Shown piece after piece: positions 3 to 48,919 of a stretch of 64,000 bases of DNA. Source of the DNA: Candidatus Sabulitectum sp. (GTDB taxonomy: Bacteria; Fermentibacterota; Fermentibacteria; Fermentibacterales; JCC-6); contig JAGLOJ010000038.1 of assembly GCA_023139045.1 (NCBI GenBank), positions 1-64,000 of the forward strand, written 5' to 3'. The translations under genes and the position numbers were made by a program. Position 1 is the first letter of the stretch. Each line of letters begins with the position of its first letter. The notes beneath the pieces are model-generated. The model saw only the letters and a list, made by a program, of their open reading frames with translations. It did not search any database and was not told the origin of the DNA.

Positions 3-752
3 CCTCAGACAGATCTCGGTGCCATATTTGGCGACAGTGAGCCGGAAACTCCAGAGCCCCAGAGCGCAGAAGCCCCAACAGAGGGCGTCCCGAGCGTCAG
101 CACGGGGGAAGCCCAAGATGTTTCAATCAAAGAGCCAGAGGAGGTAGAGTCCCCCGCTGAAATCACAGTGGAAGTGCCCATTGTGCAGGACAAAGCGGTT
201 AAAGATTCTGATGAAAAGGAAGAAACTTCTCCGGAACCAGTGGAAGAAGCTGTTGAATATTCTGACTCTTCTTGTTACACCCTGCTTCCTGGAGATGGTA
301 TTTCGCTATGTGTCATGAAGTTGGAAGATGGCGAAGTTAGGGTAATTAGGGGTCTCGTGACCGCTATGGACGGCTCTGTTTCACTGGATGGAGAAGTTCT
401 CAGTGGCAATGGTCTGGTGTGGATGGGGCAGGGGAATCTTACTCCCGTTGTGGTCAAATTTAAAGAGGGCATGACCGTTCGGATTGACCGGATGGCCGCC
501 AGACCAGTTCAGGTTACTCACGAAGCTTGCGGTATCGGTTCTGTCCCATCTTTATGCAAACTGAATGGAAGCGGAAACAGTAACCGTATTCTCATGTTCG
601 TTACCGGTAGAATCAGGAAGCTCACAGTAACACCAGGTTTGAGAGTTCGCGAAGGAAGTGTTGTTGTGGCAGATCCCGGGGTTTCTTTTACTGAAGAAAA
701 ACCAGGTTTTCTCTCTGTATCCGGTAAAGGCATGGTGATAATTACCGGCTGA
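3..752 (+). CDS. C-terminal part of an AIM24-like protein (5' end outside window)
   Basis: The frame is open from the first bases of the window, so the true start lies upstream; 249 residues are visible. The first 80 or so are acidic and rich in Pro, Glu and Ser and look like a disordered linker. The rest is a beta-rich domain ending in a Gly-rich strand (residues near GFLSVSGKG). The pattern of short strands, with a segment LMFVTGRIRKLTVTPG followed by a VVADPGV turn, resembles the AIM24/DUF124 family, whose molecular role is poorly known. The match is by eye only and the family call is tentative. It is followed by a tRNA gene and a PP2C-like gene on the same strand. Confidence 0.5.
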   Translation, partial: PQTDLGAIFGDSEPETPEPQSAEAPTEGVPSVSTGEAQDVSIKEPEEVESPAEITVEVPIVQDKAVKDSDEKEETSPEPVEEAVEYSDSSCYTLLPGDGISLCVMKLEDGEVRVIRGLVTAMDGSVSLDGEVLSGNGLVWMGQGNLTPVVVKFKEGMTVRIDRMAARPVQVTHEACGIGSVPSLCKLNGSGNSNRILMFVTGRIRKLTVTPGLRVREGSVVVADPGVSFTEEKPGFLSVSGKGMVIITG

Positions 753-755
753 GGC

Positions 756-785
756 TTGCGTAAAGAGTGCAGAATGTTCTATTAT
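756..785 (+). promoter_or_regulatory. Promoter of tRNA-Ala
   Basis: TTGCGT at 756-761 is separated by 18 bases from TATTAT at 780-785. Transcription would start near 792, a few bases before the mature tRNA at 799. It begins just after the stop codon of the preceding gene. Confidence 0.5.
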
Positions 786-798
786 CGGGGCTCATGGG

Positions 799-874
799 GG
801 GGATGTAGCTCAGTTGGGAGAGCGCTGCCTTCGCAAGGCAGAGGCCAGCGGTTCGATCCCGCTCATCTCCACCA
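799..874 (+). tRNA. tRNA-Ala (anticodon CGC)
   Basis: This is a 76-nt cloverleaf with a seven-pair acceptor stem (GGGGATG with CATCTCC), a five-pair anticodon stem (CTGCC/GGCAG) around loop TTCGCAA, and a GTTCGATCC T-arm. The 3' CCA is encoded. The acceptor contains the G3:U70 wobble pair that is the classic alanine identity element, which agrees with anticodon CGC reading GCG. Confidence 0.95.
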
Positions 875-899
875 CAACTCTCATGAAATGGTGTGATGG

Positions 900-2390
900 A
901 TGAAACGCCAATCAGGCGATCAGCCTGGTGCTGATTGCAGTGTAGCATGGCAGCTTCAGAATGGCCGCAGTCGTATCCAGCGTGACATGGCAGCCGATGG
1001 GTTCAAAGGCGATTACCCTTATGCAGGGGTGACCATTGTCGCCGAGAATCGGAATCAGGAAGATGATTCTTCTGCATCAATCACCGTTGAAACGGTAAGA
1101 GATGTTTTCGCCGAGGGTGTAGCCTTCGGAGTTGAAGATGCCCTGCGGGATTCTTTGCTGGAAGCTGCTGATATCATTCGCGACAAGAAACTTTCCGGCT
1201 GCAGTGCAGCAGCTATTGCATTCAGCGGAACTCATGTATGGTATGCAATAGCTGGAAATTGCAGGATTTATAGAATTGACTCCGATGGAGTGGATTGTAT
1301 AGTTCATGATCAATCTGCCGCAAATGAAGTGAGCATGTCTTCAGACCATCCAGACTACCATAAGAAAATCAGAGAGTTAAAGTGGTGGCTCGGAAGTCAG
1401 GCAACCGGCAAACCTGTTTGTGGTCATGCCCGGATCAAGCAAGACACGACTTATGTCATATTCACAGCAGGCGGATGGACTCAATTTGAAAGCAGTGCTG
1501 TTGTGGCTCACCGAAAGGGAAGAAAAAAAACCCTCGCGGGCTGGCTTTCCTCCCTGTCCAGAGATATGAAGCTTGCATACCGCCGACAGGGTGGTGCACT
1601 TGGCGCAGTATCCGGTATGAAGAATGGAAGTGGAAGCTCCATTCCTTGGAAATCCTGGGTTTATCTGGCTGCATTTCTCGGTTTGATAGGATTTCTTGTC
1701 TTTGCTAATCCATTTTCCAGCCAACCTCAAATTGAGGATAAGACCGATCTTTTTTCCTCCAGTTCAATTGAAGAAATTGTTCAACCAATTTTGGCAGATA
1801 CAGCATCCGGTAATGATGTTTCCCGGAAATCCGGAATGTTCAACACAATTGCAGACAGTATGTTCCTGCCGGAGCAGGAAACACTTGAGCCTGCAATTCC
1901 CGACATAACTGCTGATCTTCCTTTACAGATTATGCAGGTGGGTGGCTCTGTGTCATCCCTGAGCCCGGATTCATTTTATGTTAATTTGAATTCAGAACCG
2001 GATCTCCAGTGGGAGAATTTCGCACCGGGCATTTACGCAATCCGGGGAGATACAGCATCGTTCATGCTGGCCGTGGTTGTTAGTTCAGTTTATCCCGGAC
2101 TTGAAATAATAGAGCTTGACAGGATCATTACGGTCAGAGAGAACGGAGTAGCCGAATCTGCCAGATGGCTTTCCTCTCTTTCCCCGGATAGTGCAGCCGG
2201 CACAGGTGTTGTTGTGGAAACAAGAAGCAGTGTTGCCGGGGGTGCAGAATGGATAAGGAATTACCCACTTTTCGTAAATGGTAACAGAGCTGACCATTCA
2301 AGTGAAGCCGGTGGCTTCATGGGAGATTCCCTTCCCGGACTCCCTTCTTTGAGAAATACACATTGTTACAGGCTCGTGATTGTTCTCTGA
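900..2390 (+). CDS. Degenerate PP2C-like protein with one membrane helix and an extracytoplasmic domain
   Basis: This is a 496-residue protein. Residues about 40-230 follow the fold pattern of PPM/PP2C phosphatases: an N-terminal segment with NQEDD, then a CSAAAIAF strand, then YAIAGNCRIYRI at the position of the usual VGDSRAY motif. The metal-binding Asp of that motif is replaced by Asn (GN instead of GD), and the DGxGG signature is not recognisable, so it may be a pseudophosphatase. A single hydrophobic segment at about 248-270 is followed by some 225 residues without a recognised domain, predicted to lie outside the cytoplasm. By analogy with membrane PP2C proteins it could pass a signal across the membrane; that is inference. 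Confidence 0.55.
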   Translation: MKRQSGDQPGADCSVAWQLQNGRSRIQRDMAADGFKGDYPYAGVTIVAENRNQEDDSSASITVETVRDVFAEGVAFGVEDALRDSLLEAADIIRDKKLSGCSAAAIAFSGTHVWYAIAGNCRIYRIDSDGVDCIVHDQSAANEVSMSSDHPDYHKKIRELKWWLGSQATGKPVCGHARIKQDTTYVIFTAGGWTQFESSAVVAHRKGRKKTLAGWLSSLSRDMKLAYRRQGGALGAVSGMKNGSGSSIPWKSWVYLAAFLGLIGFLVFANPFSSQPQIEDKTDLFSSSSIEEIVQPILADTASGNDVSRKSGMFNTIADSMFLPEQETLEPAIPDITADLPLQIMQVGGSVSSLSPDSFYVNLNSEPDLQWENFAPGIYAIRGDTASFMLAVVVSSVYPGLEIIELDRIITVRENGVAESARWLSSLSPDSAAGTGVVVETRSSVAGGAEWIRNYPLFVNGNRADHSSEAGGFMGDSLPGLPSLRNTHCYRLVIVL

Positions 2391-46229: not shown

Positions 46230-47303
46230 TTGAAGATAGTACAAATAGTCAACAGCATTACAGCCGGTGGAGCAGAACGACTTGTTCTGGATCTTCATCG
46301 GGAGTATCGGCGGATGGGACATCAATCGTATGTTGCTGCTCTGTCCGGCAGTGAGCGGGTTGAGGGGGAAGATGGTTTCTGGTGTACAGGGTGCAAATCT
46401 CCGTATGCCCCTCCTGCTTCAGGCAGGCTTTCCAGTTTTTTCAGATGTGAACCACTGGCCAGTGCAGACATTGCTCATGTTCATCTGTTCCCATCTCTTC
46501 TTCGGGTTCCCGGAGCGCTTCTGCGGGCTGGCTGGAGGGGCAGACTTTTTGCCTCGGAGCACAGCACATCCAACCGAAGACGAGGAACCTTGTGGGGAAA
46601 CGTTGCCGACAACTTCACATACCGGCGTTATGAAAAGATTGTGTGTGTAAGTGAAGCGGTAAGAGAAGCTGTTGTAACCTGGAAGCCTGTTCTGCAGAAT
46701 AAAGCTGTTGTAATTCCCAATGGGGCGAGACTTGACCTATTCAAATCTGAGGGGAGAACCGGTTTTCACGATCCTCCTGTAATTCTCTCTGTTGGTAGAT
46801 TAGCTCCCGCAAAAAACTACCGCACGGCTTTGAAGGCGGTTGCCGATCTGATTGATCGAACAGATCATGCGTTTAAATGGATGATAGCCGGAGACGGCGG
46901 CATGCGTACTGAACTGGAGGAGCTGGTCTCAGATTTGTCCCTGAACGGTGTTGTCGAGTTTCTCGGTACCTGTGATGACATTCCTCAGTTGATGAGAGAT
47001 TCCGACATTTTCTTCATCCCCTCTCTCTGGGAGGGCTTTGGTATCGCCGCAGTGGAAGCCATGGCATCCGGGCTGCCGGTCGTTGCAAGTGATGTTTCCG
47101 GACTGAGGGAAGTCGTCGGGAGTGAAGCTGGTCTGCTTGTTGATCCTGCATCTGTTGAAGATATGTCTGTGGCATTGAAAAAACTGATTTGCGACTCGGA
47201 TACAGCACTCGAAATGGGTTCACACGGACCGGAAAAGGCATCAAACTATTCGCTTGAAGCCTGCGCTGTATCACACATTAATTTGTTCAGGGATAGACAA
47301 TAA
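46230..47303 (+). CDS. Glycosyltransferase family 4 protein
   Basis: The product has 357 residues and the GT-B fold. The N-terminal VNSITAGGAERLVLDLHREY matches the acceptor domain of GT4 enzymes. The C-terminal domain has ILSVGRLAPAKNYRTAL and the nucleotide-sugar EX7E motif in PSLWEGFGIAAVEAMASGLP. The acceptor cannot be told; a polysaccharide or glycolipid is usual. The start is TTG 46230. The 3' end overlaps selD on the other strand by 17 bases. Confidence 0.88.
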   Translation: MKIVQIVNSITAGGAERLVLDLHREYRRMGHQSYVAALSGSERVEGEDGFWCTGCKSPYAPPASGRLSSFFRCEPLASADIAHVHLFPSLLRVPGALLRAGWRGRLFASEHSTSNRRRGTLWGNVADNFTYRRYEKIVCVSEAVREAVVTWKPVLQNKAVVIPNGARLDLFKSEGRTGFHDPPVILSVGRLAPAKNYRTALKAVADLIDRTDHAFKWMIAGDGGMRTELEELVSDLSLNGVVEFLGTCDDIPQLMRDSDIFFIPSLWEGFGIAAVEAMASGLPVVASDVSGLREVVGSEAGLLVDPASVEDMSVALKKLICDSDTALEMGSHGPEKASNYSLEACAVSHINLFRDRQ

Positions 47304-48318
47304 GTCTGGGCTGACCTTTACCGGGATCTTCCACTACTCGACCGATTATGGTTGTCTCTTCATTGCCGCATTCTCGAAGGGCAGAAACTGCCTCTTCCAC
47401 CTGATCGGCGCGGACAGCGGCAAGGAGCCCTCCGGAAGTCTGGGCATCAAACAGAATGTCAGCCAGATTTTCACTGATATCTGAATCGATGTAGGCGTTC
47501 TCACCAACATATTTGCGATTCTGGGCAGAGCCACCGGGGAAGTAATCCTCTACATAGTTCATCACACCGGCGAAGAGAGGAATGTCTTCAGCATTGAACA
47601 CAAGCCCCACATTCGCTGATTTTGCGAACGCCAGAGAATGTCCCATAAGACCGAAGCCGGTGATATCCGTCATAGCACTCACATCGTACTCGTTCAGTAC
47701 ATCGGAGGCGTACATGTTCAATCTTTCCATGGAGGCGATCAGCGGCCCCATTATCTCAGGTTTCAGAGGTGCAGCTTTGTTTGCAGTGGTCAGAATACCT
47801 GAGCCGATGGGTTTTGTGAGGATCAGGATGTCTCCAGGCCTTGCCATGGAGTTTGTCATCACTTTTTCCGGGTGAATTATGCCGGTTACGCTGAGACCGA
47901 AAACAACCTCATCCTGCTCGGCCGTGTGGCCTCCAACAAGAACCACGCCAGCTTCAACAAGCTTCTCGCTGGAACCTGTCATTATCTCCTCGATAACTTC
48001 GACTTTAAGCTTTCCTCCGGGGAAGCAGAGGAGGTTCATTGCAGTGAGGGCTTTTCCACCCATGGCCCATATATCTGACAGGGAATTGGCCGCCGCAATT
48101 CTTCCATAGGTCCGTGGATCGCCCACTACAGGGGAAAAGAAGTCCACTGTCTGAACCAGAGCAGTTGTCTCATTGATTCTGTACACCCCTGCGTCGTCCA
48201 TAGTGTCCATTCCCACAATAAGATCAGGACTGGATATTCTGGGGAGCTTTTCAAGTATTCCCGACAGCCTGCCGGGAGCCATTTTACCTGCTCAACCGGC
48301 GCAGGCGGCGTAATCCAT
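47287..48318 (-). CDS. selD: Selenide, water dikinase, predicted selenoprotein (in-frame UGA = Sec)
   Basis: SelD makes selenophosphate for selenocysteine and selenouridine synthesis. The core is typical (DAGVYRI, TVDFFSPVVGDPRTYG, VLVGGHTAEQDEVVFG, SAMTDITGFGLMGH, DAQTSGGLL). The conventional ATG at 48282 would start after the active site. Reading upstream gives MDYAACAG-TGA-AGKMAPGRLSGILEKL: the TGA at 48292-48294 stands exactly where E. coli has Cys17, with the essential Lys three residues later (Cys17/Lys20 spacing). A SECIS-like hairpin follows. From ATG 48318 the product is 343 residues, near E. coli's 347. No stop separates it from the upstream Cys-rich segment. Confidence 0.9.
48259..48277 (-). 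promoter_or_regulatory. SECIS-like hairpin after the selD UGA
   Basis: On the minus strand, 14 bases after the UGA, TCCCG (48277-48273) pairs with CGGGA (48263-48259). The apical part GC-AGGCT-GT closely resembles the E. coli fdhF element GC-AGGTCT-GC, including the conserved GG in the loop. Spacing and loop fit a bacterial SECIS that binds SelB. Confidence 0.75.
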
Positions 48319-48468
48319 CAGGTTTACACCTGTGGAATTAACTCGCGCTGTTTCTGATATCCTCTCACAGTAAGTGGAAGATTTTGTCCGCCGGTGAAAA
48401 TCTCTGCACTCGGTACAATTACCGTACCTTCTGCAGGAAATGTTGGGGCAGGGACAACTGGTTTTCAA
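48292..48468 (-). CDS. Cys-rich segment in frame with selD (possible N-terminal fusion)
   Basis: From a TTG at 48468 the frame reads LKTSCPCPNISCRRYGNC, then TECRDFHRRTKSSTYCER, then about 20 linker residues, and runs without a stop into the selD Sec codon. The spacing CPCPNxxC...GNCxxC...YC is that of small zinc-binding proteins of 35-60 residues. Either SelD carries an N-terminal Cys-rich domain here (about 393 residues in total), or a separate small gene overlaps. No good start lies between the two parts except ATG 48318. Confidence 0.5.
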   Translation of the reverse strand: MKTSCPCPNISCRRYGNCTECRDFHRRTKSSTYCERISETARVNSTGVNLMDYAACAG

Positions 48469-48565
48469 AGCACTTCTTTCTTTTCGACACAACACGATAC
48501 AACACAACAATGACGAAGGAAGGAATATACATCTTTTCTTCGTTTTATAAAACTCGGATTATCGT

Positions 48566-48919
48566 TCAGTAACTGTTTCCGTTTTGCATGAAAAATATGG
48601 AATCATCCTCAATTGAAATTCGAATTCGATCCCCGGTAATTCCATGGGTTACATATCCGAAGCTGCCTTCCAGTGATCTTCCGTCGGCAGGCTCCATACT
48701 AACGTGAAAGGCATCGTCTTTTGTGTATATGACAGAGAACTCCCGTTGTTCACCGGGGGCCATGTTCTGAATGGTCCAGCTGCTGTCACAGACTGCAATT
48801 GTTACAGATGTGCAGATCATATCTGAATTGTTTTCAATCAGAATCAGATTCCTGCTCCTGCGACATCCTGTGACTGCAAGAAGTACGATTATGATAACAG
48901 GAGTAAGTGCCCTTCTCAT
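48566..48919 (-). CDS. Small lipoprotein
   Basis: A 117-residue protein with signal peptide and lipobox AVTGC-R near residue 19. The mature part is beta-rich (LILIENNSDMICTSVTIAV, EQREFSVIYTKDD) and ends without a membrane anchor. AAGGAGG lies upstream of ATG 48919. It is divergent from the paralogue gene at 49035. Function unknown. Confidence 0.7.
   Translation of the reverse strand: MRRALTPVIIIVLLAVTGCRRSRNLILIENNSDMICTSVTIAVCDSSWTIQNMAPGEQREFSVIYTKDDAFHVSMEPADGRSLEGSFGYVTHGITGDRIRISIEDDSIFFMQNGNSY

Follow-up and report, generated by a model that had tools for sequence, protein, structure and literature searches.

A predicted selenocysteine-containing selenophosphate synthetase with a fused, DUF6485-like Cys-rich N-terminal domain in Candidatus Sabulitectum and other Fermentibacterota

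The selD gene described here occupies positions 47287..48468 of the minus strand in the window, that is, the whole 64,000-nt stretch of Candidatus Sabulitectum sp. DNA that was analysed. It encodes a protein of 393 aa with selenocysteine (Sec) at residue 59 (residue 58 if counted from the Lys after the start). Comparison with homologues makes it highly probable that the product is a SelD, that it contains Sec specified by a UGA codon and a SECIS element, and that it is fused to an additional N-terminal domain. Sec-containing SelD proteins are known already; what appears to be new, judging from the literature covered, is the small Cys-rich N-terminal domain fused to one. The features of the locus are listed in Table 1.

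Table 1. Features of the selD locus, in window coordinates
Feature	Position	Strand	Basis
selD start codon, TTG	48468-48466	-	Similarity onset at 48468; TTG shared by genus relatives
selD stop codon, TGA	47289-47287	-	Sequence
Probable Shine-Dalgarno stretch GAAAGAA ahead of TTG	48474..48480	-	Inferred from sequence; genus relatives have a comparable purine-rich stretch
Cys-rich N-terminal domain, DUF6485-like, CPC-x4-C-x5-C-x2-C-x3-H-x8-C	48367..48456	-	Invariant columns; hhalign
Cys codon three before Sec (CxxU motif)	48301..48303	-	Invariant in alignments A2 and A3
UGA = Sec, at E. coli Cys17 position	48292..48294	-	phmmer alignment; UGA in 44/44 fusion loci
Catalytic Lys, equivalent of E. 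coli Lys20	48283..48285	-	phmmer alignment; invariant
Bacterial SECIS hairpin; arms 48276-48271 and 48265-48260, loop AGGCU 48270-48266, extra pair 48277/48259	48259..48277	-	Covariation, energies, synonymous null, third-position conservation minimum
Neighbour, glycosyltransferase-like gene, convergent, 17 bp overlap with selD end; outside the system	46230..47303	+	ORF; name read from translation
Neighbour, small putative lipoprotein gene, upstream of selD; outside the system	48566..48919	-	ORF; lipobox-like N-terminus by reading

Selenocysteine site and identity of SelD

The minus-strand frame reads ...STGVNLMDYAACAG-UGA-AGKMAPGRLSGIL..., with the UGA at 48294-48292 and the in-frame flanks ...LMDYAACAG and AGKMAPGRL.... 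When E. coli SelD (3u0o) was aligned with the window protein by phmmer, the UGA fell on Cys17 and Lys61 on Lys20. The protein matches the SelD equivalog model TIGR00476 over its full length (357 bits vs a cut-off of 125, E 6e-107), and a domain scan of it (P0001) returned AIRS and AIRS_C only. Its AlphaFold model fits the SelD structures of Aquifex and E. coli (2yye, 3u0o), with a TM score by target length of about 0.9, and its closest relatives at the protein level (76-90% identity) come from Candidatus Sabulitectum and other Fermentibacterota MAGs. An earlier note on this DNA had placed a UGA at the active-site Cys with a Lys three residues later. Both assignments stand: the UGA lies in frame at the Cys17 position and is conserved in 44 loci, the Lys is invariant, and at this site homologues have, in the same frame, either a UGA or a Cys codon. 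Sec at the SelD active site, decoded from UGA, is confirmed by these sequence comparisons.

The same note proposed that the organism decodes Sec, and named the genes whose absence would speak against this. All of them were found in the genome: selA (436 bits) and selB (309 bits) lie side by side on one contig (C186), and a tRNA-Sec with a UCA anticodon (71.5 bits) is on another (C185). In addition, 38 of 42 Fermentibacterota genomes have selA, including all 24 of high quality. A non-exhaustive search of the genome, covering few families, found no selenoproteins beyond the SelD copies. A search with a covariance model built from the selD SECIS recovered the two selD genes only, its weaker matches having no convincing frames, and the formate dehydrogenase alpha relative lacks a UGA. 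A chimeric GrdA/Trx/IscA/Bcp/GPx query, composed of approximate sequences and weak as evidence of absence, returned only UGA-free thioredoxin-like matches.

SECIS hairpin

The hairpin UCCCGGC-AGGCU-GUCGGGA begins 14-15 nt past the TGA, about where the earlier note had seen one, and has 6-8 bp and a 5-nt apical loop located 21 nt from the UGA. Its energy in the window is -11.1 kcal/mol, a value matched by just 0.38% of 5000 synonymous-codon shuffles. With this loop distance, energy and stem length it falls within the published limits for bacterial SECIS elements (PMC13188914).

Across 43 loci, the UGA and the next 54 nt can be aligned gap-free. In this alignment the 6-bp stem is paired in 94% of cells, and the covariation score is 0.379; shuffles gave 0.078, and slid controls did not exceed 0.095. 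Three stem pairs show changes of both bases (GC/CG/UA and CG/GU/AU among them); one subgroup has an A-C mismatch within the stem. RNAalifold predicted the same hairpin with one further compensated pair. Meanwhile, third-codon-position divergence among genus orthologues reaches its minimum for the gene (0.09 vs a mean of 0.50) in the 13-codon windows whose first codon is the UGA or the one before it. The fold of the whole 55-nt region was not significant against plain dinucleotide shuffles (z -0.24), and Rfam scans of the hairpin region matched no family; therefore, the case for a SECIS rests on comparative data, and the covariation and synonymous-shuffle tests were used in place of the plain-shuffle fold.

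Gene start and Cys-rich N-terminal domain

The frame stays open upstream of the UGA and encodes KTSCPCPNISCRRYGNCTECRDFHRRTKSSTYCER, followed by a linker. Nucleotide similarity with two relatives that carry selD at non-syntenic sites (L055 and L058) starts at 48468, and genus relatives have a TTG at the same place, preceded by a purine-rich stretch. The start of selD is thus placed about 60 codons upstream of the apparent one. The earlier note had given the gene as 47287-48318, with a start too far downstream; it overlooked the upstream domain and the continuation of the frame that encodes it. It also expected automated annotation to lose "12 or more residues", whereas the naive ATG at 48282 costs 62 codons. 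In genes of this kind, such annotation would remove about 60 residues and with them the active site as well as the N-terminal domain; the start given here corrects this.

The upstream domain adds about 43 residues to SelD, among them six Cys and one His in an invariant pattern. Nine columns are invariant in 35 aligned rows of fused and stand-alone DUF6485-like sequences, namely the six Cys, the His, Pro5 and Gly15. Synonymous sites in the domain are saturated, and codon-position divergence was used in place of NG86 dN/dS. Divergence at positions 1/2/3 is 0.16/0.16/0.51 in the domain vs 0.32/0.37/0.60 in the linker. The domain is in frame, coding and under purifying selection.

In an hhalign comparison, the domain matched small stand-alone proteins of the phylum at 98.6% with E 1.1e-15. 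No Pfam or NCBIfam model matches the domain of the window protein, which shows no match at all to DUF6485 (PF20095) and so misses its gathering cut-off. As for other fused domains, two had no match in Pfam and a third had unrelated weak matches only; the scores of the stand-alone relatives are close to the DUF6485 cut-off. We call the domain DUF6485-like, rather than a member of the family, because it shares profile homology and the Cys/His pattern with these proteins but lies below Pfam detection. Within the AlphaFold model of SelD it has no confident fold (pLDDT about 35-56), and a model of the stand-alone small domain (pLDDT 78) matched no solved structure in Foldseek. In the loci inspected, the stand-alone genes (found at L106-L114) lie near rplQ, phosphofructokinase and phosphatase genes, as read from translations, and no selenium link was found in these neighbourhoods, suggesting that the DUF6485-like domain is not selenium-specific by context. 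A literature search under the name DUF6485 found no paper; the fusion would be the first link of this family to selenium.

Distribution and copies of the fusion

The DUF6485-like/SelD-Sec fusion is present in 35 of the 42 Fermentibacterota genomes, truncated in one of them. The other seven have an unfused SelD-Sec (G014), a SelD fragment only (G011), or no SelD that was found, mostly in bins that are incomplete. Beyond the phylum, the fusion occurs in three MAGs, one labelled Phycisphaerae and two others, all with selA; the latter two belong to a phylum in which none of the other genomes, 82 in all, showed the fusion. The fusions group together in the SelD tree, in one cluster that includes the outside MAGs and is interrupted only by a long-branch unfused sequence (L052). 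The simplest reading of these sequences would be a single origin of the fusion followed by transfer, with binning error possible in MAG data.

A second fused Sec-SelD gene is located elsewhere in the genome (L104:1051-2250, minus strand, G000:C194). It is 49% identical to the window selD, and the sequences indicate that it stems from a duplication predating the genus. In addition, a decayed selD remnant lies beside selA (L103; G000:C186:751-1053, minus strand), with 87% nucleotide identity to window positions 47436-47740; three relatives (G029, G032 and G034) have an intact selD at that position, adjoining selA. The site of the window selD is common to five relatives, and in the selD found there in G037 (L102) about 0.9 kb is missing from within the gene, shortly past the SECIS region. 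No plasmid match was found.

A further SelD variant was observed in G004, whose second SelD (L100, nt 170-955, plus strand) is of the Cys type. Its N-terminus (MDRSIKLGHCVCDPRKHCPCPLFKEKNICTCAGE) is also Cys-rich but different, and the protein appears to be a further fusion with a small module; this gene is frameshifted further along.

Alternative readings and proposed function

Two readings would remove Sec from the protein. One of them takes the Cys-rich ORF as a small gene of its own, terminated by the TGA, with SelD translated from the ATG at 48282 and containing no Sec. TGA is a legal stop, and the ATG stands three codons on in an open frame; however, a SelD starting there would be deprived of both Cys17/Sec and Lys20, which are catalytic. 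The ATG is moreover not conserved, being replaced by CTN or TTG in many relatives, while CAG-UGA-(A/V)GK is kept on both sides of the UGA. Third-position divergence is minimal across the UGA and the hairpin, and the UGA is the sole stop between the two parts in every locus, all of which makes separate genes very improbable. Hardly credible at all is a genome-wide reassignment of TGA to Trp or another residue, or a sequencing error at this codon: this explanation has the in-frame TGA itself in its favour and nothing more, whereas TGA ends 11 of the 37 large non-overlapping ORFs in the window (selD among them), the same in-frame TGA recurs across many assemblies, and a tRNA-Sec is present.

The third alternative keeps Sec and adds a second product. 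Depending on how much selenium is available, ribosomes would either stop at the UGA, releasing a free 58-residue DUF6485-like protein, or read through it to give full SelD, so that the locus acts as a switch or sensor. The UGA lies just past domain and linker in every fusion locus, and the phylum also has stand-alone proteins related to the domain in sequence. Published Sec recoding in E. coli is just 30-40% efficient and varies with selenium (PMC4513850); the free domain may therefore also be made. Any Sec-SelD, however, gives some short product, the 58-residue form need not be stable or used, and the genus of the window retains the fusion, with no stand-alone copy found there. We consider such a switch unlikely. 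Doubtful to a somewhat greater degree is its more specific form, in which low selenium would yield a free metal- or selenium-binding Cys-rich protein, and high selenium a SelD whose tethered domain captures selenide and hands it over.

On the preferred reading, a single fused Sec-SelD, translation would begin at the TTG, so that the enzyme would carry the DUF6485-like domain immediately ahead of the Sec loop, with a variable linker between them. SelB would bring Sec-tRNA to the UGA, directed by the downstream hairpin, and Sec59 with the downstream Lys would carry out the chemistry giving selenophosphate for SelA. The protein is most likely an active selenophosphate synthetase, as predicted from its sequence. 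The invariant Cys/His set and the position ahead of the Sec loop suggest metal or selenium binding by the N-terminal domain; tentatively, and at somewhat less than an even chance, it binds zinc through this set, or holds or shields selenium or redox equivalents near Sec59. The route by which selenium reaches SelD in cells is still open (PMC13188914), and a Cys-rich domain ahead of the catalytic Sec, found throughout the phylum and in three outside MAGs, is a candidate delivery, metal or redox module. Counting against this reading, at least one family member (G014) has an unfused Sec-SelD as its only form.

Comparison with known SelD proteins

The window protein shares with other Sec-containing SelD proteins (TIGR00476) the catalytic core, Sec at the Cys17 position, a Lys three residues on (UxxK) and a SECIS directly downstream, and with the unfused Nitrospirota SelD (L064 and L065) the CAGU motif. 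It differs from Sec-containing SelD in its DUF6485-like domain and TTG start, and in the two diverged copies in the genome. The stand-alone DUF6485 (PF20095) relatives of the phylum likewise have six Cys and one His; they are unfused, with a C-terminal tail and a non-selenium neighbourhood, whereas the SelD version is below Pfam detection.

The N-terminal partners described for SelD in the literature are Ndh-like and NifS-like enzymes, in most cases attached to SelD-Cys, and a methyltransferase-SelD fusion is known from Naegleria (PMC4561486, PMC2398784). In common with Ndh-SelD and NifS-SelD, the present protein has an extra module on the N-terminal side, and the active site in the published cases is CxxC or CxxU. 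In contrast to those modules, which are large enzymes nearly always joined to SelD-Cys, the one described here is a Cys-rich stretch of about 40 residues joined to SelD-Sec; no Ndh-like or NifS-like N-terminal module is present in the window SelD. A DUF6485-like fusion was not found in the SelD literature covered. Among the loci compared, five SelD-Cys sequences (L154, L155 and L160-L162) have about 400 residues upstream that resemble the C-terminus of a NifS-like cysteine desulfurase, and many genomes of their phylum also have a separate Sec-type SelD.
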